Origin: a virus
Reading direction: 5' to 3' (one strand)
Virus record (IMG/VR): IMGVR_UViG_3300025133_000022
Coordinates: 62,001-126,000 of that record
Length of the DNA stretch: 64,000 bases
Positions 1,992 to 40,295 of the stretch are shown here, piece by piece. The notes under the pieces were generated by a model that was not told the origin of the DNA, made no database searches, and saw only the letters and a program-made list of their open reading frames with translations. Numbering within the stretch: position 1 is the stretch's first letter; every line of letters starts with the position of its first letter. Both the position numbers and the translations under genes were made by a program.

Positions 1992-1999
1992 CCAACTAA

Positions 2000-2070: not shown

Positions 2071-2086
2071 TCAATAAAGAAACAAC

Positions 2087-2575: not shown

Positions 2576-2577
2576 TT

Positions 2578-2718: not shown

Positions 2719-2751
2719 GCAATTCAATTACCATTCACAAAGGAATCAAGA

Positions 2752-3123: not shown

Positions 3124-3133
3124 GAAAAACAAC

Positions 3134-3427: not shown

Positions 3428-3433
3428 TGCTTC

Positions 3434-3454
3434 AGAGGAGCCACAAGCTCCTCT
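3434..3454 (+). terminator. Hairpin between gene and tRNA-Glu
   Basis: AGAGGAGC and GCTCCTCT form a perfect 8-bp stem with loop CACAA, followed by ATTAT. It could be a weak intrinsic terminator or a processing hairpin ahead of tRNA-Glu. Confidence 0.55.
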
Positions 3455-3459
3455 ATTAT

Positions 3460-3530
3460 GGCCCGTTCGTCTAACGGAAGGACGCCAGGTTTTCATCCTG
3501 GAAATAGGGGTTCAATTCCCCTACGGGCTA
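3460..3530 (+). tRNA. tRNA-Glu(TTC)
   Basis: Acceptor GGCCCGT pairs with ACGGGCT, anticodon loop TTTTCAT (anticodon TTC), T arm AGGGG-TTCAATT-CCCCT. No encoded CCA. Confidence 0.92.
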
Positions 3531-3562
3531 CTACAAAGAAGCAACCATGCTATGGAGCGGAA

Positions 3563-4357
3563 ATGAACACAATACACAGAGGCCTACGCGGTAAAAATGT
3601 TCTTGGCCTTAAGAGCCTGCTAAAAGAAGCGGGCCTTATTGTCACGCATAACAACATATTTGACCTACAAACTGAAGCAGGTGTCCGCACTGCACAAGAA
3701 AAATTAGGCCTAGAAAAAGATGGTATTGTCGGACCCAAGACATGGTCAGAATTGCTTGCCAAACCAAGACTTTTCAATAAACCTACCGATCCTATCGAAT
3801 GGGTTAAAGTTACTCCCTACTATCCTCAGAGAGATAATGAATATCATCCTGGCGGGACTTGCAATGTCACTAGCCTTGCTATGGTGCTTGCTTACCATGG
3901 GGTCATTCCCACAAAAGCGAATCAGCTTGAAGACGAGCTCTTCATTCGTCTTCAAAAAACAGACGCAATTGATGAATTCAACAAAAACTACCCATCTCTC
4001 AAAAAGATGGGATACAAACCAAGACATATCCACGGAATGCTCGGATGGCTTGCTCGTCAATATGGTTTCTCCTGGAAATACAGTGAAAAAACCTCACGTT
4101 CAGATCTAATTGATTTCGGAAAAACTACAGGGCCTATGATCATTAGTGGACGTTTTACAAGCAGCGGACATATTGTTACACTGGTAGGTATGACTCTCTT
4201 CAATGACTTGATTGTTCATGACCCGTGGGGAGACTGGAATAGCAACTATCGCAAACGCGATGGCAAATACAAAATCTACAATCGTGAAGCCATGGAAGAT
4301 GTGCTTAGCGGCCATAGCAAAGAGCTTAAAAGAGCTCATAGAATAACACCAGCTTGA
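3563..4357 (+). CDS. Endolysin: peptidoglycan-binding domain plus C39-like cysteine peptidase
   Basis: 264 residues; ATG 3563 is preceded by GGAGCGG. Residues about 5-65 match a PG_binding_1 domain (pattern VRTAQEKLGLEKDGIVGPKTW). The rest resembles the C39-like peptidase fold: a Cys in GGTCNVTSLAMVL, a His in SGHIVTLVG and an Asp in IVHDPWGD would form the catalytic set. Known proteins with this pairing cut peptide cross-links of the cell wall, so the likely role is host lysis. No signal peptide is visible, so a holin would be needed for export. The holin is not identified with certainty. Confidence 0.85.
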   Translation: MNTIHRGLRGKNVLGLKSLLKEAGLIVTHNNIFDLQTEAGVRTAQEKLGLEKDGIVGPKTWSELLAKPRLFNKPTDPIEWVKVTPYYPQRDNEYHPGGTCNVTSLAMVLAYHGVIPTKANQLEDELFIRLQKTDAIDEFNKNYPSLKKMGYKPRHIHGMLGWLARQYGFSWKYSEKTSRSDLIDFGKTTGPMIISGRFTSSGHIVTLVGMTLFNDLIVHDPWGDWNSNYRKRDGKYKIYNREAMEDVLSGHSKELKRAHRITPA

Positions 4358-4358
4358 A

Positions 4359-4375
4359 GGCAGCCGCAGGCTGCC
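4359..4375 (+). terminator. GC-rich hairpin after the endolysin gene
   Basis: GGCAGCC-GCA-GGCTGCC, a perfect 7-bp stem directly after the endolysin stop. There is no T-run, so its use as a terminator is uncertain. Confidence 0.5.
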
Positions 4376-4410
4376 TGCTAAAAGAGCTTGGTAACAATAG
4401 GAGTGACCAA

Positions 4411-4815
4411 ATGGAAACGGAATACACGTAGAGCCAAATCAGTTCATTCTTTGAGCGGTTAGAACAAGTAAGCAACGCACTTAACATCTGTGGAGACTAT
4501 GACTTCGAATTCACAGAATGGGAAAGCCAGTCTGGATTCATCACAGTCAGCTGGGAAGAACCAGCTTGTGGTAGCGGTTGTTGTGGCTATGACAGTCATG
4601 AAGGCCAAATACCAGTAGCACTGCTATTTGATCCCAACTGGGAAGCAACAATAGCTGCTGATAAGAAAGCAAAACTAGCTAAAGCAAAAGCTGACAAGCT
4701 TGCTAAAGAGCAAGCTGACAAGCTACAACAGCAACGAAAGGCCGAACAAGCCAAAGCCAACAGGCGTTTGACTTACCAACAATTAGCCAAAGAGTTCGGA
4801 GACACCAGTGTCTGA
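4411..4815 (+). CDS. Amber-interrupted gene (TAG at codon 7), coiled-coil C-terminus
   Basis: ATG 4411 has a strong AGGAGTG ribosome-binding site at 4399-4405. Codon 7 (4429-4431) is TAG, and the same frame then stays open for 127 more codons to TGA at 4813-4815. The downstream product is protein-like: a folded part with ESQSGFITVSWEEPACGSG, then a charged Ala/Lys/Gln-rich coiled coil. There is no ATG, GTG or TTG close after the amber codon to restart translation. The stop overlaps the GTG start of the next gene, a normal gene-to-gene junction. A tRNA with anticodon CTA lies 373 bases downstream. I infer amber readthrough; a recent nonsense mutation is the alternative. Confidence 0.72.
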
Positions 4816-5155
4816 ACACTCTTACGATCCTAACTGGAAGCTACGTATCGTAGTAGATCAAACACTAAAGCCAGGCCAACAGATAGCACAAGCTCTTCAT
4901 GCAGCCATTGAGTTCTTGTTTGTATATCCTGAACAATCAAACACATGGCACTGTCTAAGCAACAGCGTAGTCGTCATGAACTGTGAGCCAGAAGAGCTAC
5001 CCAAGCTCTTAGATCGTTGTAAAAAGAAAAATGTGCAATACTCTACCTTCATGGAGCCTGACATGGATAACCGACTTACAGCAGTCTGCATAGAGCCAAC
5101 ACGAACAGGAAAGAAGTGCACCAGCAATTACAAGCTGGCCATGCGAGACATCTAA
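4808..5155 (+). CDS. Peptidyl-tRNA hydrolase 2-like protein
   Basis: 115 residues starting at GTG 4808, which overlaps the stop of the preceding gene. The pattern LRIVVDQTLKPGQQIAQALHAAIEF matches the N-terminal strand and helix of the PTH2 family (archaeal and eukaryotic type), and TAVCIEPTR fits a later strand. PTH2 enzymes release tRNA from dropped-off peptidyl-tRNA. Its place next to a suppressor tRNA and a tRNA array fits tRNA recycling. Confidence 0.75.
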   Translation: MSEHSYDPNWKLRIVVDQTLKPGQQIAQALHAAIEFLFVYPEQSNTWHCLSNSVVVMNCEPEELPKLLDRCKKKNVQYSTFMEPDMDNRLTAVCIEPTRTGKKCTSNYKLAMRDI

Positions 5156-5162
5156 AGGCTCA

Positions 5163-5181
5163 GCGAGGGCTTGGACCTCGC
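5163..5181 (+). terminator. Hairpin between PTH2-like gene and CTA tRNA
   Basis: GCGAGG and CCTCGC pair around a short loop, followed by GTTTAT. Possible terminator or tRNA-processing hairpin. Confidence 0.45.
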
Positions 5182-5187
5182 GTTTAT

Positions 5188-5259
5188 GAGGAATTAGCTC
5201 AGCGGTAGAGCAGCAAATTCTAAACTTGTTTGTCGGGGGTTCGAATCCCCCATTCCTCA
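5188..5259 (+). tRNA. Suppressor-type tRNA, anticodon CTA
   Basis: Acceptor GAGGAAT pairs perfectly with ATTCCTC, D arm GCTC-AGCGGTA-GAGC, anticodon arm GCAAA-TTCTAAA-CTTGT (one A-C mismatch at 31-39), T arm GGGGG-TTCGAAT-CCCCC. The loop has T33 and A37, A38, and positions 34-36 are CTA, which reads UAG. An 11-base loop with a different stem is possible but less canonical. Its amino acid cannot be assigned. The amber-interrupted gene at 4411 is a nearby candidate target. Confidence 0.82.
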
Positions 5260-5299
5260 CTGCCGTAGGCGTGCGTAGCACGCCTTGTGGATTGAGCTC

Positions 5300-5328
5300 T
5301 TGACACACAAAAACAATCTGGTTATGTT
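5300..5328 (+). promoter_or_regulatory. Sigma-70-like promoter upstream of tRNA-Pro and the RNA region
   Basis: TTGACA at 5300-5305, a 17-base spacer, and TATGTT at 5323-5328. Spacing and -35 match the bacterial housekeeping consensus. It follows a GC-rich hairpin (AGGCGTGC-GTA-GCACGCCT) and precedes tRNA-Pro by about 38 bases, so it may drive the tRNA region. Confidence 0.6.
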
Positions 5329-5365
5329 GTCAGACTGTTCTTTGAAAACCACAATTGAAATGAAT

Positions 5366-5439
5366 CGGAGTGTAGCGCAGCCTGGTAGCGCATCTGCTTT
5401 GGGAGCAGAGGGTCGCAGGTTCAAATCCTGCCTCTCCGA
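5366..5439 (+). tRNA. tRNA-Pro(TGG)
   Basis: Acceptor CGGAGTG pairs with CTCTCCG (one mismatch), anticodon arm TCTGC-TTTGGGA-GCAGA (anticodon TGG), T arm GCAGG-TTCAAAT-CCTGC. C1 is typical of proline tRNAs. Confidence 0.92.
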
Positions 5440-5458
5440 CCTTTTCTAAAGGAACAAA

Positions 5459-5755
5459 ATGGAATACAAAACAATCGAAACAGCATTGAGAAACGCAAGC
5501 GAAAGCGTGAACTTAGCTATCCAGCAGGTTCAGCTAGCGAAAATGAAAGATGAAGCAGTAAGCTGCCACATCCAAATTGCAAGATACTTCAAGATCCATG
5601 ACAACAAGCCAACAACCTACACAGAAATAGCGACTGCTATCGGTCGCCCGAAAAAGTACGTAGCCAACGTGCTTTCTGGTTACTACAAATTCCAGAAGAC
5701 TCAGTGGGGAAAAGGCTGGAAGATGAGAAAATCTTGTCTTAAGCAAGTCCTTTAA
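5459..5755 (+). CDS. Putative helix-turn-helix DNA-binding protein
   Basis: 98 residues, ATG 5459 behind AAGGA. Residues about 55-80 (TTYTEIATAIGRPKKYVANVL) read like a helix-turn-helix, preceded by a helical region. A regulator of the adjacent RNA region is possible but not shown. Confidence 0.65.
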   Translation: MEYKTIETALRNASESVNLAIQQVQLAKMKDEAVSCHIQIARYFKIHDNKPTTYTEIATAIGRPKKYVANVLSGYYKFQKTQWGKGWKMRKSCLKQVL

Positions 5756-5817
5756 GTAAAAGCAATTAGTTAACGAAGAAATCGTTAACCACGACTGAAT
5801 GCCTGAGCAGATTACAT

Positions 5818-5893
5818 CGCCTTCCACGCGGGTAACACAGGTTCAAATCCTGTACTCGGCTTTATGCCGAGTTCGTCTAGCGGCTAAGACACC
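5818..5893 (+). tRNA. Permuted tRNA, unit 1 (anticodon TCC, Glu-like body)
   Basis: The 3' part (5818-5861) precedes the 5' part (5866-5893), separated by a 4-base linker TTAT. Joined in tRNA order they give acceptor GCCGAGT/ACTCGGC, D stem GTCT/AGAC, anticodon stem CCCGC/GCGGG around loop CTTCCAC (TCC), and T arm ACAGG-TTCAAAT-CCTGT, all perfect. The junction is between positions 28 and 29. Outside, GACTGA (5793-5798) pairs with TCAGTC (5918-5923) and AGATTA (5809-5814) with TAATCT (5900-5905). The core has ATGCC before CAT|CG, and AAAC, TTG on the other side. A hairpin GTTAACGA/TCGTTAAC (5769-5789) lies just upstream. The body resembles tRNA-Glu but the anticodon reads Gly codons. Confidence 0.85.
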
Positions 5894-5966
5894 TCAAACT
5901 AATCTCTTGTATCCTTGTCAGTCACCTTCACGCCCATGATTCTGAGGCTGTAAATATCAGACGCAC

Positions 5967-6041
5967 GGCTATGTGGCTCAGTTTGGTTAGAGCAGGGGCT
6001 TCATACGCCCAAGGCCACAGGTTCAAATCCTGTCATAGCCA
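5967..6041 (+). tRNA. tRNA-Met or Ile2 (CAT)
   Basis: Normal cloverleaf: GGCTATG/CATAGCC acceptor, anticodon arm GGGGC-TTCATAC-GCCCA, T arm ACAGG-TTCAAAT-CCTGT. Anticodon CAT can be elongator Met or, if modified, Ile for AUA. Confidence 0.9.
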
Positions 6042-6056
6042 TTTCACACTATTTAA

Positions 6057-6132
6057 TGCGGAGTAGACTGGAGTTTGGTCCCAGCACGGTCTCATAAGCC
6101 GTATGACGTAGGTTCGAATCCTACTTCCGCCT
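6057..6132 (+). tRNA. tRNA-fMet-like (CAT)
   Basis: Anticodon loop CTCATAA as in initiator tRNAs, and an unpaired 1-72 position (T1, C72), which is also an initiator feature. T arm GTAGG-TTCGAAT-CCTAC. The D arm is long and irregular. Initiator identity is inferred from these two features. Confidence 0.8.
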
Positions 6133-6146
6133 CTTTAGAGAATGCA

Positions 6147-6452
6147 ATGTTTGATATAATAATTCCTTTCCTCATGGGCATCGTTCTTGTCGGTGCTATG
6201 ATGGAAAGAACTCTTACAGTCATTCAAGGAAACATTTCACGAACTGCTGTACTTAGCATTCTTATCAGTTCTGTGTATTGGTTTAACATCCAATATGTAG
6301 CGAGTGGAAATGTAGCTGCTTATATTAGTTTCAGTATAGGAACTCTTATAGTTACCTGTTGGCAAAGCTGGCGAGAAAAACAACGCTATGCTGGACAACC
6401 GGGGAAAAGCAGAAGAATGACTGACAAACTTAAAAATATTAAGAAAGAATGA
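6147..6452 (+). CDS. Small membrane protein
   Basis: 101 residues with three hydrophobic stretches (about residues 3-17, 33-50 and 55-72) and a basic C-terminus. ATG 6147 is chosen because upstream in-frame codons lie in the tRNA. A holin-like role is conceivable but the pattern is not diagnostic. The stop codon lies inside the pairing segment of the RNA unit that follows (GAATGA at 6447-6452), so gene and RNA element overlap. Confidence 0.65.
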   Translation: MFDIIIPFLMGIVLVGAMMERTLTVIQGNISRTAVLSILISSVYWFNIQYVASGNVAAYISFSIGTLIVTCWQSWREKQRYAGQPGKSRRMTDKLKNIKKE

Positions 6453-6617
6453 ACAAGAGTTTTCATCGCAAAAATAACGGCCCTAAGGTACCTAGATCTG
6501 GGCAACCAGTCAGGGAAAAATGTGAATCCTTCATGGACAAAGCATTGTGGTGACGGCAGATAAGCTTCTTGAAGCCCTGTAACGACCGGCAGAAACTCTT
6601 ACCTCCTTGTCTTTCTT
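6441..6617 (+). ncRNA. RNA unit 0: non-tRNA body with permuted-tRNA type flanks
   Basis: AAGAAAGA (6441-6448) pairs with TCTTTCTT (6610-6617), and AAGAGTTT (6455-6462) with AAACTCTT (6593-6600), both perfect 8-bp helices. The core matches the tRNA units: GAATGA, then TCAT|CG at 6463-6468, and TTG before the outer helix. The enclosed body, about 6467-6592, does not fold as a tRNA by eye. It holds CTGG-GCAA-CCAG (GNRA hairpin), a CAGGG/CCCTG long-range pair and GCTT-CTTG-AAGC. If processed like its neighbours it would be released as a circle of about 125 nt. Function unknown. Confidence 0.65.
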
Positions 6618-6654
6618 ATGTATTTGAATACTTAGTATTTCCTATTTACTTTTT

Positions 6655-6730
6655 GTCCTTGTAGCTCAGTGTTTAGAGCGCCCGAACCTGAAAAGCAGGG
6701 AGGTCGTCGGTTAGAATCCAACCAAGGACA
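6655..6730 (+). tRNA. Degenerate tRNA, possibly tRNA-Phe(GAA)
   Basis: Acceptor GTCCTTG/CAAGGAC and D arm GCTC/GAGC are perfect. The anticodon region contains CTGAAAA, the usual Phe loop, but the stem around it is broken (CCC/GGG with an inner bulge, 20 bases instead of 17). The T stem has one mismatch and the T loop is TTAGAAT. It may be a decaying or unusual tRNA. Confidence 0.55.
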
Positions 6731-6858
6731 ACAAATACATCTAAGTGCATCCAGACCTTACAGGCAACCCAAGGGTCAAGCCTGCAAGTGAAACTGTACA
6801 TTTGTGGGTACACAAACCCCGTGAGACCGTTCTCGACACGTTAAATCGGAGGACACAC
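6731..6858 (+). other. Structured spacer before RNA unit 2
   Basis: No open reading frame of note. Contains hairpins CAGGC/GCCTG, TTTGTG/CACAAA and GAGA-CCG-TTCTC. It may be a structural domain of the RNA elements or simply a spacer. Confidence 0.4.
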
Positions 6859-12211: not shown

Positions 12212-12826
12212 ATGAAAATCGTATTTATAACAGGAGCTGGTATTAGCACAGCCTCTGGACTCCCCACATACAGGGGGGCCAATGGACTCTACGGCAATGA
12301 GCCAATAGAAGACGGTTACAGAATTGATGAAATCCTAAGTAGAAAAATTGCAAACATAAGACCAGATTTATTTAATAAATATCATGGTCAAATTGAAAAA
12401 GCTATTGCATTAGTTGAACCCAACACTATGCACTATGCTATCGCTGCTCTTCAAGAGCAGCACGATGTACGTATTTACACTCAAAACATCGATGACTTAC
12501 ATGAACGTGCGGGCAGCAAGCATGTTGTTCATCTGCACGGTGGAGGAGCTGAAAAAGAACCAGTCATTCTGTTCGGAGACTACTTGGATCCACAGAAGCT
12601 AAAGTGGATGAAGGCAGCCTGCAAGGCTGCTGATATACTGGTGCTTGTGGGCAGCTCTGCTGCCTTCCACTACATCCAAAGACCTTTCAAGAAAGCCAAG
12701 TATGACCACCCACAGGTCTTTATTCTAGACCCTGATCCACAACATCCACTGGCTGACACGGGTGTACACAAGAAGAATCCAAGCGAATACGCAGACATCA
12801 TCAAAATTATTCCAGAACTATTCTGA
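12212..12826 (+). CDS. Sirtuin (Sir2-family NAD-dependent deacylase or NAD hydrolase)
   Basis: 204 residues with the full Sir2 signature: FITGAGISTASGLPTYRG (NAD binding), YTQNIDDLHERAGSKHVVHLHG (Gln-Asn and catalytic His), and LVGSSAAFHY. The four zinc-ligand cysteines of many sirtuins are absent, making a compact member. Sirtuins remove acyl groups using NAD; some in bacterial defence degrade NAD. In a phage either modification of host proteins or NAD handling is possible. It stands alone between a terminator and tRNA-Ile. Confidence 0.9.
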   Translation: MKIVFITGAGISTASGLPTYRGANGLYGNEPIEDGYRIDEILSRKIANIRPDLFNKYHGQIEKAIALVEPNTMHYAIAALQEQHDVRIYTQNIDDLHERAGSKHVVHLHGGGAEKEPVILFGDYLDPQKLKWMKAACKAADILVLVGSSAAFHYIQRPFKKAKYDHPQVFILDPDPQHPLADTGVHKKNPSEYADIIKIIPELF

Positions 12827-12842
12827 TAATAATTCAACTTAC

Positions 12843-12914
12843 GGACCTGTAGCTCAGCGGTAGAGCATTCGTCTTATATGCGATAGGTCGGAGGTTCAAA
12901 TCCTCTCAGGTCTA
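12843..12914 (+). tRNA. tRNA-Ile(TAT)
   Basis: Acceptor GGACCTG/CAGGTCT, D arm GCTC/GAGC, anticodon loop CTTATAT (TAT), T arm GGAGG-TTCAAAT-CCTCT. A second TAT tRNA besides permuted unit 3. Confidence 0.87.
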
Positions 12915-12937
12915 CTAAATTAACAAGAGAAATAAAA

Positions 12938-13303
12938 ATGATTAAATCACAAACAGTAAAAATGATTAGCTGCAATGACCTAGATTGCATGGTGCAAGAA
13001 GTCTACGAACGTCCCTATTGTTTCCAACAACAAAATGGATGCAAACCCAGGGGGATAGAAAGAGTAACCATCCCCACACTTGGTGAAGACTATGAAAACG
13101 ATACCATTTCTGAAGAAGCCAACAGTATGGGGGTTTCATTCAATGCCTGGCTTAAGCGAGACCCAGAAAAAACCACTGGTTATGGCTCAGTAGGACGATG
13201 CTGGGAAAGGAATTTCTACCCACACTTAGACATGGTTTTGAACGATCTGCATAAACGAGGTCTCGTTGCTGCAGGAGAATACATCATCAACATCGATTGG
13301 TAA
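12938..13303 (+). CDS. Protein of unknown function
   Basis: 121 residues, ATG 12938 behind AAGAGA. It has paired Cys residues near the N-terminus (CNDLDC) and a pattern TIPTLGEDYENDT. No domain recognised. Confidence 0.7.
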   Translation: MIKSQTVKMISCNDLDCMVQEVYERPYCFQQQNGCKPRGIERVTIPTLGEDYENDTISEEANSMGVSFNAWLKRDPEKTTGYGSVGRCWERNFYPHLDMVLNDLHKRGLVAAGEYIINIDW

Positions 13304-13315
13304 CCATCAGTACAT

Positions 13316-13387
13316 GCACCGTTAGTTCAATGGATAGAATGCTCGGCTACGAACCGAAGGATAGGGGTTCAAGTCCCTTGCGGTGTA
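13316..13387 (+). tRNA. tRNA-Arg(ACG)
   Basis: Acceptor GCACCGT/GCGGTGT, anticodon arm CTCGG-CTACGAA-CCGAA (ACG), T arm AGGGG-TTCAAGT-CCCTT. Confidence 0.9.
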
Positions 13388-13404
13388 CTATACAAGGAAA
13401 CAAT

Positions 13405-15734: not shown

Positions 15735-18376
15735 ATGAACCAGGTACCATTGTATATTATCAACTTGGACGACAGCGTCCCACTGCCTGGTGGTACGTTC
15801 GTATTAGATGTTCAAACAGAAAAACTGCATTTATTCAGCAGTGTCGAATCATACAACAAGCAATATGTTATTATTGGTATAGCTGATTGTCCAGACCCAA
15901 CAGAAATACTCGAAGACCCTACATCTGCCCTTGAGCCTTTGCTACAAGTAGGGGTCATGTGTCAAATCACAGAAACAGAAGCTGCAGACACCTTCACGGT
16001 ATATACTCTTCAGGTACTGCATCGAGTCTTGATTAGAAATATCAATAGAAACAAAAGTGAAGACGACCCATATACTCTTTGGGTTCAGCAAGAGCCTATA
16101 GCAGAAGAATTTCTCCCCGCAGAAGAAGAACTAAAGAGAGACATTCAAGATATGATTGGAATATTTCTCCGTAAAGAACAAATCTGGGCAGGTATGTCTG
16201 ATTCAACTATCAAGACACTGCGCTCAGATGAGCATCTTTTGAAAAAGATGCATCTTATGGCAGGGCACATGCTATCAGGTATTGAACGATTAGACTATTT
16301 GCAACAACTCAGCAATGTTGACAGATGGAATAAAGTACTAACTGTGGCTAGCAAAAAACTAAGCGCACAAGCGAGAGCACTACCTCCCCCCGTCTCTAAG
16401 AAAATAGACAAACCTAAAAAGAAAGGTAAGAAACTACTTACTTGGAGAGAACGAGTTGCAGAGAGCGACATGCCTGATGCCGTACGAGAGAAAGTACTAC
16501 GCGAAGTCAGCAAGTTGGAATCTACTCCAAAAAACAGTACCGAGTATGCTCAGACAGCCGACTACCTTCGATGGACTCTAAGCGTTCCATGGGGTAAAAC
16601 AAGCTACATACCAACAGACCTACGCAAACTCCACAGCAAACTAGACGAAACACACTACGGTTTAAGTGAAGTGAAAGAACACATGCTTGAAATCATGTGT
16701 GTCCAAGAGCTTCACGAAGGCTCCACGGGCTCTGTGCTTTGTTTTGTAGGCCCTCCCGGCACAGGCAAAACCACCATCGCAAAATCTATTGCAGACGTTT
16801 CAAATCGTCCACTTATTAGAATTGCCCTAGGTGGACTCAGCGATACTGCTGAATTTCGAGGTTAAGCAAAATGGCCTCGCGTGTTGGCAACAGCACGAAA
16901 ACAATTCCATTAATTGCTGGAACATCCTAATGACAAAGTCAAGGACAATCAGCAGCTAGATATTAGTGGTCACCACATGTTACATTAACTCTATAACCAC
17001 GGAGTTAACAATGAAATATCATGTAGGCGACACACTTGGTTCGTTTCTACTCATCAATAAAGATGGAGTAAAATGGACCGCAAAATGCACATGTGGAAAC
17101 ATTTGGTCAACAAGATTGATACGACTAAAAGGCCGTACCAACTGCCCCAAATGCTCACCGCCACGATCTTATAAGCAAAGACAACCAGGTGAAACAATTA
17201 ACAGCCACACCTTACTTGAACGATTACCATCTAGAAAATGGAAAACTCAATGTAAGTGTGGAGCAACTAGAATATGTTCACCAGCTGATCTTAAAAGATA
17301 CGATACATGTAAAGCCTGCTACGATCCTGAGAAAGTAGCAGGCCAACTCCGACTTCCTCCTAAAGAGAAAGAAACTAATTATCGTATCCGCTACTACAAA
17401 AAACATGCTAAAGAAAGAAACTACGATTGGGAATTGACAAAATTTCAAACCCAAACACTACTTCAAAGCATATGCAACTATTGTGGTAGCGAAAATGCTC
17501 AAGGCATTGACAGAGTAGACAACTCTCAAGGATATACAATTAGCAACTGTGTCAGTTGCTGCAATTTTTGCAATCATGCAAAGAAAAACTATCCTAAAGA
17601 AGAGTTTCTTAATCATATTAAGCGCATTTATGAATATCAGTTCAGAGACTATCCCGAAAGGGAGTACAGCCAAGCGGCTGGAAACATGGAACCCCCACGT
17701 GGGTGAAGATATAGTCCGATCTACATGGAAACATGTAGCAGCGAAAGCGAGTGTAGCCTAGCGAACTACGCTGAACACCATGCATAGACGTACATACGTA
17801 GCCAGCAGACCAGGACGACTCATCTCCGAACTAAAAGAGAAGGGCAGTATGGATCCACTCATCCTTTTAGATGAAGTTGATAAGCTTGCTCACTACAAGG
17901 GCGACCCAGCAGCAGCCCTATTAGAGATCTTAGATCCAGAACAAAACGATCATTTTGTAGACCACTACTTGGAAGTGCCAGTAAATCTAAGTAAAGCAAT
18001 GTTCATTTGCACAGCCAATTACGAAGAAAAAATTCCACAACCACTACTAGATCGTATGGAACTAATCAGGTTCCGAGCTTACGATGATGCTGAACGCGAC
18101 ATTATTACAAAACAATTTCTGCTGCCAAAAATCCAAGCTCAAGAAAACAATACAAATCTACCAGTAACCTTCGAAGATACAGCTTTAACTAGAATAGCTA
18201 AGATTCCACAAGTAAGAAAAATCGAGAAGATTTTAGCTAAGCTTGTTCGCCGAGGAGTTACCCAAGTCCATGTACATGGGAAGAAAGAATACGTCATTAC
18301 AAATGATGATGTATCAAAAATTAAACACAACTATGTGTCAAAATCCGATCGAAAAATAATTGGATTCAGGAAATAA
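15735..18376 (+). CDS. Lon-like AAA+ ATPase lacking the protease domain, two exons
   Basis: Exons 15735-16862 and 17783-18376 encode about 573 residues. The order is an N-terminal Lon substrate-binding domain (residues 1-190), a basic linker, then the AAA+ module with Walker A CFVGPPGTGKTT and, in exon 2, Walker B PLILLDEVDKL. Exon 1 ends LGGLSDTAEFRG and exon 2 resumes HRRTYVASRPGRL, the uninterrupted Lon motif. After the AAA+ lid (KIEKILAKLVRRGV) the protein stops: the Ser-Lys protease domain of Lon is absent. It could unfold or remodel proteins, or feed a separate protease. The genome also encodes two ClpP-like proteins. Confidence 0.88.
16863..17782 (+). mobile_element. Group I intron in the lon-like gene
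   Basis: 920 bases. The exon ends in GGT (U before the intron) and the intron ends in G, as in group I introns. Core elements are visible: a P/Q pair AATTGCTGG and AATCAGCAGC near the 5' end, and GAAGATATAGTCC (P7 3' strand region) near the 3' end. It carries an HNH endonuclease gene. Insertion is in the conserved Lon motif GG(x)DEAEIRG/HRRTY, between Walker A and Walker B. Confidence 0.9.
17011..17706 (+). CDS. HNH homing endonuclease, intron-encoded
   Basis: 231 residues from ATG 17011, which has GGAG just upstream. N-terminal zinc-like repeats (CTCG...CPKC, then CKCG...CKAC) resemble DNA-binding modules of phage HNH enzymes. The C-terminal part CNYCG...GIDRVDN...NCVSCCNFCNHAK is an HNH/GIY-associated type with Cys pairs holding the nuclease fold. 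It would cut intron-less alleles and spread the intron. Confidence 0.82.
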   Translation: MKYHVGDTLGSFLLINKDGVKWTAKCTCGNIWSTRLIRLKGRTNCPKCSPPRSYKQRQPGETINSHTLLERLPSRKWKTQCKCGATRICSPADLKRYDTCKACYDPEKVAGQLRLPPKEKETNYRIRYYKKHAKERNYDWELTKFQTQTLLQSICNYCGSENAQGIDRVDNSQGYTISNCVSCCNFCNHAKKNYPKEEFLNHIKRIYEYQFRDYPEREYSQAAGNMEPPRG

Positions 18377-18381
18377 TTACA

Positions 18382-18579
18382 ATGACAACACAATTAGATA
18401 CAAGCACGATCCCAAACCGCATTTGGTTTGTCAACAGTGGGAATGATATTAAAGGTCAATGGCCTAGCAGAAGACTTGCTCGTGTTCAAAAACGTGAACT
18501 TATCGCAGCAGGAAACACTGCGAACATTAGTTTTAGTTTGGTAACAATTGAAAAACCAATCGTAGATTCACATTCCTAA
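18382..18579 (+). CDS. Small protein of unknown function
   Basis: 65 residues starting 5 bases after the lon-like stop, so likely in the same transcript. Predicted beta strands at both ends. A terminator follows. Confidence 0.65.
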   Translation: MTTQLDTSTIPNRIWFVNSGNDIKGQWPSRRLARVQKRELIAAGNTANISFSLVTIEKPIVDSHS

Positions 18580-18635: not shown

Positions 18636-19298
18636 TTGCTCAAATACAATCCAGAAAATCGTGTAAAAGATATAATCAAAAACCAAATCCTCGACTTACC
18701 AGAACTACAACACCAACTATCTAAAAATGCCATCTCGTATCTTCGAGAAAGGGTGTTTTTAGGGCAGTGTCAACCATATACTCAAAGAACAAGTAGTGGA
18801 CGACTAACTAGTATGCAAATTCAAACTATTTGTAAATTAAATATCTTGTGTTATCAAGAAAGTTATTATCATCGAGGATTGATAAATGCCGCAACTAAAA
18901 ATAATAAACCAATAGATGTAATCGCATTACATGATTACATCTATGCTCAACTTACACTCATTGTAGCAAACCCAAGATCCGAAATTTCAAACGACTCTCA
19001 AGCTCTTTTGAGAGGTCTAAAATTAAGTAGACGAGCACAAATCGCCCTACTTAATCAAAGAAATGGCCTTTCTGAAATTCTCCAAAGAGAACAACAACTT
19101 CAGCTTGCTCAACTTGGCACGCTAATCCTTCCACCCGCCCTTCTCACCATTTTACGTGAACCAGTTCACTTTGTAGACACTACCGCTACTGCCCTTGGCA
19201 GACTTGCTGAGGTGGTGCTGCGCCAAGGAATCAAATGCCAGGTTTCCACAACGACCAACTCTTTCATTTCAGAGCTTTTAGCAAGCTGCGTCCATTAG
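18636..19298 (+). CDS. Protein of unknown function, first gene of the ubiquitin-like cassette
   Basis: 220 residues from TTG 18636 behind AGGAGC. Helical, Leu/Gln-rich. It overlaps the next long gene by 64 bases, so the two are probably coupled. It sits upstream of the JAB/E1/Ubl-like genes and may belong to that system. No domain recognised. Confidence 0.65.
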   Translation: MLKYNPENRVKDIIKNQILDLPELQHQLSKNAISYLRERVFLGQCQPYTQRTSSGRLTSMQIQTICKLNILCYQESYYHRGLINAATKNNKPIDVIALHDYIYAQLTLIVANPRSEISNDSQALLRGLKLSRRAQIALLNQRNGLSEILQREQQLQLAQLGTLILPPALLTILREPVHFVDTTATALGRLAEVVLRQGIKCQVSTTTNSFISELLASCVH

Positions 19299-21442
19299 CT
19301 TACTATGCATTGTCTAGTGCGTACTTTTGCTCCCAGATGCGTTCCAACAGGTCTGCCAGACCATCTCTAGAGTACATCTACAACTTAATCCAAGAAAGTG
19401 TTCTTGCTTTCGATATTGAATTTAATGGAAAATCAACCTTCCATACAAATTCAATAAGAAGACATCACACTACACCCAAACGCAATATGGGAATGCTTAA
19501 GGTACGCAGAACCAAGCAAGGCTATACAAGCTTACCAGAATCACTTTTGAAAAGCATGGGCTCTCCCTTGCATTTTCCGACCCTGCCACCAAGCTTGACT
19601 TTCACCCCAAATGAAAATTTTGAATTGATTCCATATCGCATACAGATGGAAGCAAAATGGGTAGATCGCAGAGGAATGATCAGTTGCTTAGGTAGTAATT
19701 TTCGCAAATGGGTTGCTAGCCAAGGCCCCAGAAGAACAATAACCTGCAGAGGATACCGACACACTTTAGAAGAAAGCAAAATACCAGAATACAGTATCAA
19801 CTACGTTCCAGGCAAAACTGTTTCTAAAGCCGGAAACTTCTTCCTCTACAGCCAGAACCTCAACATCTACAATCCATACACTAAAGAGTACGAAACTGTA
19901 CTGTGGGTGGGTCTGGCTAGTTGCATGAGCATACAATATCTTTATACTCATCCATACGCTACGAAAATCATGAAGAGTCTTCTGGAAGCTAAAAAGCTTA
20001 AGAAAACCATTACCCCTCTTAGTAGGTATAATGCAAAAACTCCAGAAGGCATACGTTGGAGTGCAGCTACTTGGGAAAAGATAGCAGGTCAAACTTTAGA
20101 CCAGTACCAGAAGCAAAGTCATTCAAAAATTCTCGAAACACTAATTTTAGTTGAAGAACTGTTTTCTACTCCAGAAGGCATCAAGCTTCAGCGCATGGAA
20201 GATCTTGCACAAATAAAAAAACAAGAACTTGACGAATTAGAAGCTCAGTTAGAAATTACCGAAAAACAACTTCTCAAAACACAAACAGCAATAATAACAG
20301 AACTGCAACGCGTTAGAGAATACCAACTGAGCCTTCAAAGAAACCGAGAGAAAATTCCCTCCCTTGTGAAAGAGAAAGAAAAACTCCACCCAGAAGTAAG
20401 TGCACGAAAAGCAATTTTCAGTAAGATTCAAACTGCAATAGAAAAGAAAAGAACAGCATTCGAGCTAAATAAACGAAACTTCTTACGCGCTGACAAATTT
20501 AAGAACTCTAGCTCCTATGCAGAAGGCCTAGCTAAGAGCGGACTGGTAATAGACGACTTGGTTTATAAGAACCAAGTCTCAGGCAGAATGAAAACCGCTA
20601 GTGATAACCCAGACATCACGGTACAGCGAGACTGGAAATTAATAAAAGCCTATATGCATACTACTCGTCCAATCAAGATGCATTTTGGTTTAGAGAATGA
20701 AAAACCAAGAGCTAGTGGACCTCATAGGTTAAAAGTATGGCTTGAAGAGGGTACACCCAAACTGAAAATTTCTCCATTGGTTGCCTGGGCGGCGCTAGGC
20801 TGGGACGAGACTACTTTCAAGATAACTCCTCATGCGGATAGCTGCTCCATAGATACAACACAGCCTGCTATGTCAATCTGTAATGACATCTTGGATCACA
20901 GCCCAACAGTTTGCATGGGAGAGCTCAGTGCAACTGCCAGCTGGGCGTTTCATGATAACAATCCTAAAATGCTGGCGTTAGCAATCCTAAGCTTTCTTCA
21001 AAGTGTTAACAAGAAAGACATCTGGGGGAAAACATATACTACGTTCCCTTTCTGGGAAGATGTACAAAAAAGCAAACTTCCCAACGATTACACACACTGG
21101 GTAGAAAATACTGTAATCAAACAATCAGAAGCGCCTAAGTATTATATATCCAAATGTAGTAATTACTTCTTCGAAGTAACTAAAGGATCTGATGGGTGTG
21201 ATTGTAGATGGGGGCGTCTGAGAAAAACAGACAATGGTCTTGTAGAAACAAGCAACAATAGCCACCTCAACTACATAAGAAGCGATTACAATACAACTTA
21301 TACTTTATTGTGCGCAAATGCGCAATGGGTATTATCTCCATTTGCTGCAATTCAACAGAAGCATGATGGAACTACACCTGGTTGGAACCCCATGTCCTAT
21401 GTGCCACCTCCAACTGATTCTTTAGCTACTCCTACTTCTTAA
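19235..21442 (+). CDS. Large coiled-coil protein, possibly with an E2-like C-terminal domain
   Basis: 735 residues. A central coiled coil (about residues 325-420) separates two globular parts. The C-terminal part has KITPHADSCS... followed about 30 residues later by TVCMGELSATASW and a helix FLQSVNKKDIWG. A Cys-x-Gly motif followed by a Trp is loosely like the active site of E2 conjugating enzymes and PRTRC-B proteins. This is a weak pattern read by eye. Its place directly before JAB, E1 and Ubl genes is the main argument. The start may be internal, since ATG 19235 overlaps the previous gene. Confidence 0.6.
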   Translation: MPGFHNDQLFHFRAFSKLRPLAYYALSSAYFCSQMRSNRSARPSLEYIYNLIQESVLAFDIEFNGKSTFHTNSIRRHHTTPKRNMGMLKVRRTKQGYTSLPESLLKSMGSPLHFPTLPPSLTFTPNENFELIPYRIQMEAKWVDRRGMISCLGSNFRKWVASQGPRRTITCRGYRHTLEESKIPEYSINYVPGKTVSKAGNFFLYSQNLNIYNPYTKEYETVLWVGLASCMSIQYLYTHPYATKIMKSLLEAKKLKKTITPLSRYNAKTPEGIRWSAATWEKIAGQTLDQYQKQSHSKILETLILVEELFSTPEGIKLQRMEDLAQIKKQELDELEAQLEITEKQLLKTQTAIITELQRVREYQLSLQRNREKIPSLVKEKEKLHPEVSARKAIFSKIQTAIEKKRTAFELNKRNFLRADKFKNSSSYAEGLAKSGLVIDDLVYKNQVSGRMKTASDNPDITVQRDWKLIKAYMHTTRPIKMHFGLENEKPRASGPHRLKVWLEEGTPKLKISPLVAWAALGWDETTFKITPHADSCSIDTTQPAMSICNDILDHSPTVCMGELSATASWAFHDNNPKMLALAILSFLQSVNKKDIWGKTYTTFPFWEDVQKSKLPNDYTHWVENTVIKQSEAPKYYISKCSNYFFEVTKGSDGCDCRWGRLRKTDNGLVETSNNSHLNYIRSDYNTTYTLLCANAQWVLSPFAAIQQKHDGTTPGWNPMSYVPPPTDSLATPTS

Positions 21443-21448
21443 AACCGA

Positions 21449-21474
21449 GGGGGGCGCGTAGCGCCCCTTCTTTC
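21449..21474 (+). terminator. Intrinsic terminator
   Basis: GGGGCGC-GTA-GCGCCCC followed by TTCTTTC. Partial termination would leave the JAB gene separately controlled. Confidence 0.8.
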
Positions 21475-21484
21475 AAGAGCAGAT

Positions 21485-22723
21485 ATGAATAAAACACCTA
21501 AAAAAACCTTTGAAATCATACCATTTGGCATTACACCAGACGTGACTGTCTGTATTGATCATGCAAGCCTATTGCGTTACCGCTACTTGGTAGCACAAGT
21601 ATCACCAAACGAAGTTCAATGGTACGCAAAAGTAAAACGAACAGTTACACCAGCTAGCGAACGATCCCGTCAATATTCCAATTCACTATGGACATATCAT
21701 ATCACAGATATGTTCGTTCCCGAACAAAGCGTGAGCAAAGGTTCTGTTGATACTGACATCAAACAAAACCCAGCAGCAATGTATCGACTCATGAAAGAAA
21801 TCGAAGGACGCTATCCTGATGATAGCAGTGAGCTTGGATTCAATACAGAGAAAGCCAACGAAGACATACAGGCTATGCACGTCTGGTGTCATTCGCACCC
21901 GTTCACTCAATATCCTACTCCGAGTGGGCAAGACGACAAAATGTTTTCTGATTGGGTCTATGATAATCAAATAGCCCAAACAATAACCTCTCCGTTCGTA
22001 GCACTTATCTTCGGCTCTAGTGAAAACATTCACGCACGCATATATGACCCGCTTACTCCTGGCATCATGTATGAAAATGTTAAAGTCTCTATCACTGTTG
22101 ATAAAGACTTTGATACAACTTACATGGACAATGCAGTAGCAACCAAGATTGAAGAAAAGACTTTCAATTACGCCAGCGGCGGCACTTACATTCGCTGCTC
22201 TGATGGAGTTTATCGCACTTCTGAAGTAAAAAATGCCTTTGATAAAACCAATCAGAAAAAGCTAATCAGCAAGAAAAACAAATGCTTTTTTGATAAATAT
22301 TTTCCAACAGACTGGGAAACATTTGTTGCAGATTGCAATAGCAAGTACGACAACACCAAAGAAATAATGGAGCTGTGGAACTTCATGTGTCGCTGGCTGC
22401 CTACAAAATTAGAGCGAACGCTTTTCTGCTTAGCTCTTGTAGATACTTCTGAAAGCTTAGAAAAAATGGCACGAGCCAAACAAGAAGACTTATTCCACAT
22501 ATCAGATGAGGACGCTATACTCGTTCTTACAACACACTTCTCATCTGATTCTGTCTGTAGTAAACAACTTCGTTCTGCTTTGACCTTCTCTAAGCGATAC
22601 GCAAAACAAAACAGTGAAGAAGGCAGACTCCGTGCAGTACGCTTTCTTAAGAAGAGCCTAGACAAAATTATCCACAACTCTGCCAGCCCTTCAGGCTACG
22701 TCTTTTTAGAAGACTGCAATTAA
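21485..22723 (+). CDS. JAB/MPN-domain metalloprotease (deubiquitinase-like)
   Basis: 412 residues. The JAMM zinc motif HSHPFTQYPTPSGQDD (about residues 138-153) has both His, the Ser and the Asp of H-x-H-P...P-S-x-x-D. The N-terminal 230 residues are the MPN fold; the C-terminal part has no clear homology by eye. JAMM proteases remove ubiquitin-like proteins or trim their tails. Followed 22 bases later by the E1-like gene, so most likely one operon. Confidence 0.85.
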   Translation: MNKTPKKTFEIIPFGITPDVTVCIDHASLLRYRYLVAQVSPNEVQWYAKVKRTVTPASERSRQYSNSLWTYHITDMFVPEQSVSKGSVDTDIKQNPAAMYRLMKEIEGRYPDDSSELGFNTEKANEDIQAMHVWCHSHPFTQYPTPSGQDDKMFSDWVYDNQIAQTITSPFVALIFGSSENIHARIYDPLTPGIMYENVKVSITVDKDFDTTYMDNAVATKIEEKTFNYASGGTYIRCSDGVYRTSEVKNAFDKTNQKKLISKKNKCFFDKYFPTDWETFVADCNSKYDNTKEIMELWNFMCRWLPTKLERTLFCLALVDTSESLEKMARAKQEDLFHISDEDAILVLTTHFSSDSVCSKQLRSALTFSKRYAKQNSEEGRLRAVRFLKKSLDKIIHNSASPSGYVFLEDCN

Positions 22724-22745
22724 CAAACACCAGCGAGAAATTACC

Positions 22746-23441
22746 ATGAGCACACGTGTATCATTCCAAAGACACAATGGCTTTGTAAGCCCAGAATGTC
22801 TTACTGATACTCTCAATATCATTGGAGTCGGCGCGACTGGCTCCAATGTAGCCCTAACAGCAGCTAAAATGGGGTTTACCAAATTTCGCATTTGGGATGA
22901 CGACATTGTTGAAGCTCATAATTTACCCAACCAGACATATGACCTCTGTCATGTTGGCATGCCAAAAGTAGAAGCACTTAAAACAGTGCTAAAACGCTTT
23001 AACCCCGAGATTGAAGTAGAAGTCAATCAGTGTTACTTCACCGCCAAAGAACATGGTGATGACCTGGAAGGCCCACTCATTCTCACCGTTGACACAATGA
23101 AAGCCCGCAAAGAAATCACAGACTGCTTTGAAGGCAACATTCTCATCGATACCGTAATCGAATCCCGTTTAGGATTCAATCATGGCACAATCAATATTAT
23201 AGATTGTACCAGTGCAAAAGATATAAAGGAATGGAAACATTCTTTATTCAGTGATGACGAAATACCCGAAGGTCCTTGTGGCTTTCGAATTTGTACCACC
23301 ATGGTTGGCATGGTTGCGAACTTTATGGTTCAGCAACTCTGCCAAAAATATGCTGCTCAGAAAACCAATGCAGCATGGAACCCAAAGAAAAAGACAGTGC
23401 TCGCCTTCAGTGACACTAGTCTAGACACCTATTCAACCTAA
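22746..23441 (+). CDS. ThiF/E1-like activating enzyme
   Basis: 231 residues. The nucleotide-binding motif NIIGVGATGSNVALTAAKMG is followed by IWDDDIVEAHNLPNQTYDLCHVGMPKVEAL, the adenylation region of the ThiF/MoeB/E1 family (the usual Asn-x-x-Arg is changed to HNLPNQ). E1-like proteins adenylate the C-terminus of a ubiquitin-like protein. The catalytic Cys is not obvious. A small beta-grasp gene follows directly. Confidence 0.85.
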   Translation: MSTRVSFQRHNGFVSPECLTDTLNIIGVGATGSNVALTAAKMGFTKFRIWDDDIVEAHNLPNQTYDLCHVGMPKVEALKTVLKRFNPEIEVEVNQCYFTAKEHGDDLEGPLILTVDTMKARKEITDCFEGNILIDTVIESRLGFNHGTINIIDCTSAKDIKEWKHSLFSDDEIPEGPCGFRICTTMVGMVANFMVQQLCQKYAAQKTNAAWNPKKKTVLAFSDTSLDTYST

Positions 23442-23454
23442 GGAATTATCGCAC

Positions 23455-23682
23455 ATGCGCACAATCTCTCTCGTCACTCTTCCAGGCTCTGGCCGTAGCG
23501 TTCAGCAAATCGAACCCGGAACCACCCTTGCATCCTTCGCTGCCGCCAATGGCGTAACAAACCGTCAGCTCTGTCTGAACGGTGACACAATCCCAAGAGC
23601 CCAGTGGGAATCTGTCGACCTGTTTGCATATGAAGGCAGGGTAGAAGTGGCCGCACTGCTAGGCAGCAAGGGCAACAGCTGA
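23455..23682 (+). CDS. Small beta-grasp (ubiquitin/ThiS-like) protein
   Basis: 75 residues with strand-helix-strand spacing of a beta-grasp fold: RTISLVTLPGSGRSVQQIEPGT, helix LASFAAANGV, QLCLNGDTIP, and a final strand ending ALLGSKGNS. It resembles the small ubiquitin-like C protein of PRTRC plasmid systems. The tail lacks a terminal GG but has KG two residues from the end, which the JAB protease could expose. The position after E1 and JAB supports a role as the modifier. Confidence 0.7.
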   Translation: MRTISLVTLPGSGRSVQQIEPGTTLASFAAANGVTNRQLCLNGDTIPRAQWESVDLFAYEGRVEVAALLGSKGNS

Positions 23683-37051: not shown

Positions 37052-37274
37052 CTGGAACAACGACTCAACCAAAGACGAACTGCAAGCCGAACTTGTCCGA
37101 CTAGAAAGACTGCACGAACGAAACAGATCCAAGTACCTAGAACTGCAAGCCAAAGTTAAGAAATTACAAGCAGAAAACAAAGAACTCAAAACCAAACTAG
37201 GCAAAGAGCAAGACGCCAATCTCGATAAAAGCACCCTGCATTTTTCGGATCTGTTTGGAGGTTTTAAATTTTGA
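37044..37274 (+). CDS. Coiled-coil protein preceding dnaE
   Basis: 76 residues, almost wholly charged coiled coil. Its TGA overlaps the TTG start of the polymerase N-terminal gene, so translation is probably coupled. Confidence 0.68.
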   Translation: MSNWNNDSTKDELQAELVRLERLHERNRSKYLELQAKVKKLQAENKELKTKLGKEQDANLDKSTLHFSDLFGGFKF

Positions 37275-38599
37275 GCAACTTCGTACACTTGCACATGCAC
37301 ACCGAATACAGCACACTCGATGGCATCAACAGGATTGAAACTCTGCCCGACCACATCATAAGCTTGGGTCAGAAAGCCGTGGCTATCACAGACCACGGCA
37401 ACATCAGCGGCAGCTACAAATTTGCCAAGAGCTGTAGAGCCAAGGGCATCAAGCCTATCATTGGCCTAGAAGCCTATTACACTCCACATGACGCAGCAGT
37501 GCGCGAACTAGACGATCTGGGAAAGAGGTACTATCACATGGTGCTCCTGGCCAAGAACGGAGTAGGCTTGAAGAACCTCCGATGGCTAAGCACCAAGGCG
37601 TTTACTCAGGGCTTCTACGCGAAGCCACGATTGGACGATCGCATCATTGCTGATCACTCAGAAGGCATCATTGCTACAAGCGCATGCCTGGGAAGTAGGA
37701 TCAGTCAGCTGATTCTAAACGACCGTAAGGTCGAAGCAGAAAAAATGCTACTGCACCACAATGCGATATTTAAAGACAGCTTCTTCATCGAAGTACAGTT
37801 ACACCCCATGGGTGAGCAACAGCTAGTCAACCAAGTGTTGTTAGACATTGCGAAGAGGCACAGTCTGCCGCTCATCCTTACAAACGACTGCCACTACACT
37901 CACGAGCAAGACAAACTGCTGCACGAAAAGGCACTATGCATGAGTACTAATGCCAAAATGAGTGATCCACCATGGGACCCTGAACGCAAAGCCAAGGGTC
38001 TTACTGGAAAGACCCGATTTAGTTTCGGGCCCATCGATGTACATGTAGCACACCATGACTGGATGTGGAAACATGCACAAGCTCAAGGAATTCCCTATGA
38101 AGCAATTAGTAACACTGCTGCAGTGGCAGACAGTATCCGTGATGATCAATACTTCATGGATATTCGTAACAGATATCCCCGCTATCAGCATGTTGACACT
38201 GGGGAAACTAGCTGGAACGCTTTAGAGTACTTAGCAAAAGAACTTCTTTGGAAAAAAATGAACGGTCAAGTACCAGAAGTCTATCGAAATCGCATGGATC
38301 ATGAACTTGGAATCATTAAAAAAATGGGGTTCTCTGACTATTTGCTTATTGTTCATCAATTTTTAGAAGGGGCTCGGAAAGAAGATGTCTTTATTGGTCC
38401 AGGTCGAGGTAGTGCTGCCGGAAGTCTAGTCAGCTACGCACTGGGTATCACCCAAGTGGATCCAATCAAATACGGACTTGTATTTGAACGTTGGCTTAAC
38501 TACGGTCGTGCTGCTCAGCCAATTTTATTTGACCAACACATGGTGCAGCAAATCAAGAGCATGACACCTGTAAAAGCGCCATGCTCTCATAGTCATTAA
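37271..38599 (+). CDS. dnaE: DNA polymerase III alpha, N-terminal gene (PHP domain and start of the polymerase core)
   Basis: 442 residues from TTG 37271 behind TTTGGAGG. The PHP domain begins FVHLHMHTEYSTLDG with metal-binding His residues and ITDHGNISG, LTNDCHYT further on. The last part, IGPGRGSAAGSLVSYALGITQVDPIKYGLVFERWLNYGR, is the start of the DnaE polymerase core. It then ends in a His-rich tail (KAPCSHSH) before the catalytic Asp motif, which is in the separate C-terminal gene 1.7 kb downstream. The two products must assemble for activity. Confidence 0.9.
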   Translation: MSNFVHLHMHTEYSTLDGINRIETLPDHIISLGQKAVAITDHGNISGSYKFAKSCRAKGIKPIIGLEAYYTPHDAAVRELDDLGKRYYHMVLLAKNGVGLKNLRWLSTKAFTQGFYAKPRLDDRIIADHSEGIIATSACLGSRISQLILNDRKVEAEKMLLHHNAIFKDSFFIEVQLHPMGEQQLVNQVLLDIAKRHSLPLILTNDCHYTHEQDKLLHEKALCMSTNAKMSDPPWDPERKAKGLTGKTRFSFGPIDVHVAHHDWMWKHAQAQGIPYEAISNTAAVADSIRDDQYFMDIRNRYPRYQHVDTGETSWNALEYLAKELLWKKMNGQVPEVYRNRMDHELGIIKKMGFSDYLLIVHQFLEGARKEDVFIGPGRGSAAGSLVSYALGITQVDPIKYGLVFERWLNYGRAAQPILFDQHMVQQIKSMTPVKAPCSHSH

Positions 38600-39318
38600 G
38601 TAGGTATGGCAACCCAGCCATCTCGTACAGTGAAAGTGACACTCTTTACATAGCCTGAATTGTCATGAAACATAACTCTTGCATCATTGGGAGCAGTTAT
38701 GCTTCCGATGCTTAAGCTCATTGTCTCCTGGCTTAATATATTCTCATCGGAATCAAGAAGGCATGCCATCACGGAAACTTCTGCTGCAGAATCTACATAC
38801 CAGTAGACTAGCAATGCAGAAGGCTCCGTGCTTTGTTCGTCATCCCCACCGGAGCCAACATTACCGACACCACTGGTAATCGAGGCTTCCCAGTCACCTC
38901 CACTGTGTTTGAAAGCCCAAGCGTTAACCCAGGTCGTGCTAAACTTTAAACCTATCCCAATGGCGGCATTAGACCATGTCCCAGTAATATCACTTAAATT
39001 CAATCTAGTGATGTACATAAACTGATCAGCATCCCAAGTGCCGTCAACACCTGGGTCAAGCTGCACGGCTAAACTTTGACTTGAAAGAACTGAGTGTGCT
39101 GTAGCGTTTGTGGTCAGGGTATTCGAAGTACCGAGACTGCTACTATCAAGTGCCCCTTGGGTATCGGTGATAGTGTTGCCAACAAGATCTCTGTTTGAAA
39201 GAGTGGCCGCTGGGCTTCCACCCCCGCCAGAAGCAGTAGTATCATTAAGAGCCTCTCCTGAGAGAGGCCCTCCACCAGTTACTGTAACTTGTACCTTACT
39301 ATTGGTTGGACCCGACAT
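38596..39318 (-). CDS. Virion-like beta-rich protein, inverted island
   Basis: 240 residues on the minus strand, third in the reverse operon. Gly/Ser/Thr-rich N-terminus, then strand-rich sequence (WDADQFMYITRLNLSDITGTW, TWVNAWAFKHSGGDW) resembling lectin- or fibre-like folds of virion proteins. Its last bases overlap the end of the polymerase N-terminal gene on the other strand. Confidence 0.7.
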   Translation of the reverse strand: MSGPTNSKVQVTVTGGGPLSGEALNDTTASGGGGSPAATLSNRDLVGNTITDTQGALDSSSLGTSNTLTTNATAHSVLSSQSLAVQLDPGVDGTWDADQFMYITRLNLSDITGTWSNAAIGIGLKFSTTWVNAWAFKHSGGDWEASITSGVGNVGSGGDDEQSTEPSALLVYWYVDSAAEVSVMACLLDSDENILSQETMSLSIGSITAPNDARVMFHDNSGYVKSVTFTVRDGWVAIPT

Positions 39319-39321
39319 GCA

Positions 39322-39729: not shown

Positions 39730-39740
39730 CGTAAAACTCC

Positions 39741-40235: not shown

Positions 40236-40295
40236 CGAAACTCCAAATTATATTTAATATTACCCACATCACCAACCGGGAGACCGAGCAAATCT

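Follow-up and report, generated by a model that had tools for sequence, protein, structure and literature searches.

Full sets of E1-like, E2-like, ubiquitin-like protein (Ubl) and JAB protease genes have already been described on bacterial plasmids and in systems of antiphage defence. In the part of Iyer 2006 (PMC1779556) available to us, class 6d combines a Ubl, an E2, a JAB, an E1 and a helical protein, and TAPI/JAB genes of phage tails are also described; a five-gene phage cassette is not among the operons presented in that part. From the gene content given there we equate class 6d with the PRTRC systems (NCBIfam TIGR03734-03742). In the ISG15-like antiphage system Bil (BilABCD), a JAB trims the Ubl, BilD has two adenylation domains (one inactive, one active) and a Cys domain, BilA has two Ubl domains, and BilB carries a CEHH motif (PMC11354881). 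Here we analyze a cassette of five genes that probably specifies a pathway of this kind in a phage. It lies at positions 18,636 to 23,682 of the window, by which we mean the whole analyzed stretch of 64,000 nucleotides, positions 62,001 to 126,000 of the IMG/VR virus record IMGVR_UViG_3300025133_000022 (192,537 bases). Our literature search, with subscription papers and preprints outside its coverage, found no paper on a phage E1-E2-Ubl-JAB cassette; an earlier description is possible.

A conserved five-gene cassette

An earlier, sequence-only reading had listed a 220-residue helical protein, a large possible E2-like protein, a JAB protease, an E1-like enzyme and a beta-grasp protein, in this order. 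All five open reading frames (ORFs) are present with the lengths, order and coordinates given in Table 1, on the plus strand and nearly abutting; the 3' end of the 220-codon ORF overlaps the start of the 735-codon one, for which translation could instead begin at a later Met (codon 36, 19340) that lies clear of the overlap. The helical protein had no family match in the Pfam and NCBIfam scans. The cassette is situated in a phage early/replication region, its neighbors being RIIA/RIIB, UvsX, primase, a split DNA polymerase and PhoH.

Scans of viral contigs with the single E1, JAB and E2-like sequences of the window found no relatives. Alignments of E1 sequences used as queries yielded first 36 and then 55 viral loci, plus 80 loci from bacterial genome contigs (loci are designated L below). 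One of them, the viral contig L050, contains a Lon-like gene, a 62-amino-acid ORF, the helical protein, the E2-like protein, JAB, E1, Ubl and PhoH in the same order as the window; the E-values between the two were 3.8e-5 for the helical protein, 1e-3 for the E2-like protein, 6e-20 for JAB, 1.5e-55 for E1 and 5.5e-8 for Ubl. The presence of the complete set in L050, with its gene order unchanged, shows that the cassette has been conserved as one block, beyond what chance would give. Among the 55 fetched viral loci, which were not de-duplicated, 51 (crAss-like phages included) encode a JAMM protein at most 3.5 kb from the E1, and 32 also have a loose E2-like motif in a nearby ORF. To judge from these sequences, versions of the cassette are carried by many unrelated phages.

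E1-like enzyme, JAB protease and ubiquitin-like protein

The E1-like protein bears the ThiF/E1 motif GVGATGS and matches the Pfam ThiF family with E=3.9e-19 (69.2 bits, cut-off 28.1; one ThiF domain), and a profile of 27 E1 sequences matches UBA5 (1.6e-20), ThiF (4.3e-20) and the E1 catalytic subunits UBA1/UBA7 (about 1e-18), which identifies it, at the level of profiles, as a ThiF/UBA5-type adenylating enzyme. Ten residues are common to all aligned phage and PRTRC E1s (G27, G29, S33, D51, D53, N59, K74, D116, R121 and C178); the E1 motif features among them are GxGxxGS, DxD, K74 and D116, and E1 motif residues are kept with the exception of the Arg of the NLxRQ motif. Cys178 (codon 23277-23279), invariant in the 27 E1s, aligns with Cys184 of ThiF, the residue that forms a covalent link with ThiS, and is a candidate for the thioester Cys.

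In a maximum-likelihood tree of 83 E1s (rooted for drawing only; Bil not included), one side of a supported branch (98/91) holds 54 sequences: 36 viral ones, 11 from genome contigs, six from named phages, and the window E1. The PRTRC group, together with four viral sequences (95/89), is separate, ThiF also lies apart from the 54-member side, and the window pairs with L050 at 100/100.

The window JAB contains the JAMM motif HSHPFTQYPTPSGQDD, with the segment from HxH to D of the JAMM site at 21890-21934. When it is aligned to six further JABs, E43, H136, H138, S147 and D150 prove invariant and make up a complete JAMM site. The match to Pfam Prok-JAB is weak (E=0.003, below cut-off); a hidden Markov model (HMM) of 17 phage JABs recovered the window JAB with E=1.4e-8 as its sole match above noise among 392 window ORFs, and among solved structures the JAB profile is nearest to Rpn11 (E=1.5e-4), followed by AMSH and JAMM1.

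The 75-amino-acid protein, single-copy in the genome record, matches thiS with E=0.016 when used alone. The first Ubl family HMMs missed it, and the assignment was resolved through its L050 ortholog (E=5.5e-8). A 19-sequence Ubl family profile matches MoaD (1.5e-5), SAMP2 (2.3e-5), ThiS (2e-4) and the archaeal protein PF1061 with the C-termini aligned, and two sister Ubls bearing GG pass the ThiS cut-off. By this profile evidence the protein is a ubiquitin-like member of the beta-grasp family, and the calls for the E1-like enzyme and JAB made in the sequence-only reading likewise hold at the profile level.

The Ubl C-termini are SKG-NS in the window, SKG-NA in L050, TKG-N (twice) in L051 and IKG-N in L104, while the Ubls of L105, L106 and L112 have GG and then a tail that differs in length; most relatives have a Gly at the same C-terminal place. 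These termini fit processing to Gly by the JAB. We propose Gly73 (codon 23671-23673) as the mature C-terminus, with the NS tail removed; cleavage at KG-NS, suggested earlier from the window alone, thus gains support from the SKG-N(S/A) pair and from the Gly of the relatives.

The E2-like protein

No E2 family in Pfam, NCBIfam, PADLOC or PHROGs matched the 735-amino-acid protein, Pfam had none for ten of its relatives either, and a search of its profile against PDB sequences gave nothing significant, mostly coiled coils. It belongs to an undescribed family, whose members share a coiled coil followed by the pattern YxLGxFxI...N...HPHV...G.PC.GN. The Cys of CMGE noted in the sequence-only reading is C560 (codon 20912-20914), within the motif TPH(x26)CMGE with P532-H533, and is the proposed E2 active-site Cys. 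His-Pro-Asn-like motifs upstream of a Cys were found both in the family (HPH...C.G) and in the window (TPH(x26)CMG), and members such as L009 HPHISGSGHACFG have the classical E2 layout HPN(x7)C. H533 and C560 do not vary among 28 sequences, a set selected in part by the motif. The spacing from PH to C is longer in the window (26 residues) and in L050 (about 20).

The L050 ortholog was found by phmmer without use of the motif. A family HMM built without the window and L050 gave as its top three L003 (4e-8), L050 (7e-5) and the window (2e-4), the next match being at 0.1. The motif PHx4-30CxG occurs in 20 of the 45 ORFs located just upstream of a JAB versus eight of 404 other ORFs (near-copies not removed).

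AlphaFold2 predicted the E2 core of a 224-amino-acid family member, L106, with predicted local distance difference test (pLDDT) values mostly of 92-97. All of the best 50 rows of the structure search with this model were E2/UBC or RWD structures (Z 7.0-7.6, root-mean-square deviation 3.0-4.1 A over 94-120 residues); these Z values are below 8, the level which the search tool calls clear, and the matches span the whole domain. With the model of the window domain the best 50 rows were also all E2-related, with Z of only 2.2-2.9. A UBC fold is therefore predicted at the family level, via L106, the window's own model being weak. The E2 call, which the sequence-only reading had itself rated as weak, is now the strongest new finding: the protein is placed in an E2-like family with a predicted UBC/E2 fold and an HPH...C active-site motif.

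Some family members differ in architecture. In L009 (6204-7991), L095 (3978-5294) and L089 (4344-5715), the E2-like region is followed by Cys-rich zinc regions resembling RING or B-box (weak Pfam matches), and these proteins are possible E2-E3 fusions. Tandem E2-like paralogs occur in L010, L051 and L107, and two-domain beta-grasp-like Ubls in L010 and L051 (Table 1).

Comparison with described systems

The cassette resembles PRTRC in that Ubl, E2-like, JAB and E1-like genes stand together, in the end of the Ubl (AGTKG in PRTRC), and in the order of the genes, C-F-B-A-ThiF of PRTRC in L045 being similar to Ubl-E2-JAB-E1 of several phages; moreover, the plasmid proteins matched by the L003 phage E1 nearly all bear the annotation PRTRC ThiF. 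On the other hand, the PRTRC ThiF model scores 25.6 bits against a cut-off of 144.75, the A, B and C models are unmatched by the cassette, no ParB (TIGR03734) match was found in the 192.5-kb record, which may be incomplete, and the PRTRC E2 lacks a His upstream of the Cys, whereas the phage E2 has HPH. An alignment of PRTRC B with the phage E2 family by hhalign gave nothing significant, only the C.G region being aligned. The parallel with PRTRC drawn in the sequence-only reading stands as an analogy and fails as membership, as PRTRC models do not match and the E1 clade is separate.

Bil shares the gene set of Ubl, E1, E2 and JAB, whereas the window has a 231-amino-acid E1 with one ThiF domain, one Ubl domain and PH...C. 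CBASS Cap2/Cap3 and the other E2-E1-JAB fusions (Iyer classes 6a and 6b) are similar in the E1 and have an E2 with His and Cys; in contrast to them, E1 and E2 of the window are separate genes, a Ubl is encoded, and no CD-NTase was seen in the adjacent genes. Thus the cassette works like PRTRC and Bil and is to be filed under neither.

Among phages, crAss001 (L004, gp79-gp76) is similar in that a JAB annotated as metalloprotease adjoins a ThiF-like E1 of the same clade. Its gp76, which carries a thiamine biosynthesis annotation, and its metalloprotease gp77 resemble the E1 and JAB of such a system. An N-terminal Ubl candidate in gp79 was seen by eye only, and the match of gp78 to the E2 family HMM (E=0.2) is not significant.

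Proposed pathway and alternative explanations

We consider it probable that the cassette is a phage-encoded ubiquitin-like conjugation and deconjugation system. The JAB would trim the NS tail of the Ubl and expose Gly73; the E1 would adenylate the Ubl and then hold it as a thioester on Cys178; the Ubl would pass to Cys560 of the E2-like domain; and the E2-like protein, its coiled coil serving as scaffold or substrate contact, would transfer the Ubl to a protein amine in an isopeptide bond, from which the JAB could also take it off. As the cassette sits among early/replication genes both here and in crAss-like phages, our guess is that the targets are either proteins that replicate or repair DNA or proteins of the host.

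Several observations weigh against this interpretation. Where classical E1s have the Arg of NLxRQ, the window has Asn (NLPNQ), and the phage relatives lack this Arg too; the window Ubl matches the family HMM made without L050 only at E=0.1; the invariance of H533 and C560 is partly built in, some E2 relatives having been picked by motif; the AlphaFold2 model of the window E2 domain is poor (mean pLDDT 57); and Foldseek with L106 gives E2s with probability of at most 0.84 and E above 0.1, none being under 0.001. In addition, the Ubls of L007, L010, L013 and L019 have no terminal Gly, so that processing to Gly would not be universal and the chemistry may vary.

Of the other explanations, the one that survives best, and which we still hold to be unlikely, is that the cassette acts against rival phages or host defence, as Bil-like systems would, and not on the phage's own or the host's replication proteins. 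The logic is the same as in Bil and CBASS Cap2/Cap3 (PMC11354881, PMC10097602), and the window E1 matches the PADLOC E1-E2 models; yet the adjacent genes scanned include no known defence effector, the cassette is placed among replication genes, and the E1 tree, in which Bil is not represented, groups the window with other phage cassettes. A sulfur-carrier pathway of the ThiS/MoaD/Urm1 type, in which the E1 would make a Ubl thiocarboxylate for tRNA or cofactor thiolation and the large protein would be an accessory, is quite improbable: E1 and Ubl also match ThiF, ThiS and MoaD, and tRNA genes, those for Lys, Glu and Gln among them, are located some 10-20 kb upstream, but family scans of the adjacent genes found no ThiG, MoaE, rhodanese or tRNA thiolase, and an E2-like gene accompanies E1 and JAB in many loci. 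Equally hard to credit is a reading of the E2-like protein as a scaffold of RWD type, catalytically dead, with the Ubl acting without covalent transfer through it: although one RWD structure among the best L106 rows shares the fold and the PH-to-Cys spacing of the window exceeds that of classical E2s, members found independently of the motif (L050, and the window by HMM) retain both the Cys and the HPH-type His.

Neighboring genes

A group I intron divides the Lon-like AAA+ gene upstream of the cassette (Table 1); in L050 this gene is uninterrupted, encodes 567 amino acids and occupies the same place. No Lon_C peptidase domain was found in the genome record. As a constant partner of the cassette this gene was rejected: of the compared loci, only the window and L050 have the two together, and for this reason any connection with tag-directed unfolding is speculative.

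The DNA polymerase gene (37271-43907) is in three pieces, 37271-38599, 40008-41483 and 42561-43907; a group I intron at 42257-42493 (62.9 bits) precedes the third piece, and minus-strand ORFs are located at 38596-40235. ARAGORN identified 15 tRNA genes at 799-13388, including one with anticodon CTA at 5188-5260 that it calls Pyl and that is possibly an amber suppressor. In L007, L011, L012 and L019, a reverse-transcriptase-like gene was seen by eye downstream of the E1, after the cassette.

Table 1. Coordinates of the cassette, its neighbors and compared loci (positions in the window unless a locus is named)
Feature	Coordinates	Strand	Remarks
Lon-like AAA+ gene, first exon	15735..16865	+	LON substrate-binding domain, start of AAA
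HNH endonuclease-like ORF in group I intron	16966..17706	+	HNH by eye
Group I intron core in Lon-like gene	17556-17738		Rfam Intron_gpI E=4.1e-10, 45.3 bits, just under gathering 50
Lon-like gene, second exon	17780..18376	+	
65-amino-acid ORF between Lon-like gene and cassette	18382..18579	+	62-amino-acid ORF at same place in L050
Helical protein, first cassette gene	18636..19298	+	220 amino acids, TTG start, mostly helical
E2-like protein	19235..21442	+	735 amino acids: N-terminal region, coiled coil, C-terminal UBC/E2-like domain
Predicted UBC/E2-like catalytic domain	20405..21091	+	A11 profile match G000:C1:82405-83091 (A11 includes window sequence)
JAB/JAMM metalloprotease	21485..22723	+	412 amino acids
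E1-like adenylating enzyme	22746..23441	+	231 amino acids
Ubiquitin-like beta-grasp protein (Ubl)	23455..23682	+	75 amino acids
Ortholog of helical protein	L050:3163-3678		Same place, E=3.8e-5
Ortholog of E2-like protein	L050:3656-5764		
Tandem E2-like/two-domain Ubl loci	L010 4875-8028 and 9804-10292; L051 3135-6157 and 7806-8282; L107 3211-5879		

Implications

A wider scenario, which we offer tentatively and regard as doubtful, is that a viral Ubl pathway, with an E2 family of its own from outside Pfam, operates across many phage lineages, ranging from the crAss-like ones to phages of uncultured phyla, and acts on replication or host proteins. In some cases it would include tandem Ubls (L010, L051) or an E2 followed by RING-like zinc regions (L009, L095); in the present phage the tag may feed the adjoining peptidase-less Lon-like AAA+ unfoldase. 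If the proposed pathway is true, phages that bear this clade, with its unrecognized HPH-type E2, would themselves be attaching a ubiquitin-like tag to proteins, and crAss-like phage genes now listed under thiamine biosynthesis would be reinterpreted. The enzymes, which are short, have a single domain and are related to UBA5 and Rpn11, would provide material for studying the origin of such cascades. Bacterial viruses may thus run a ubiquitin-like signalling of their own.

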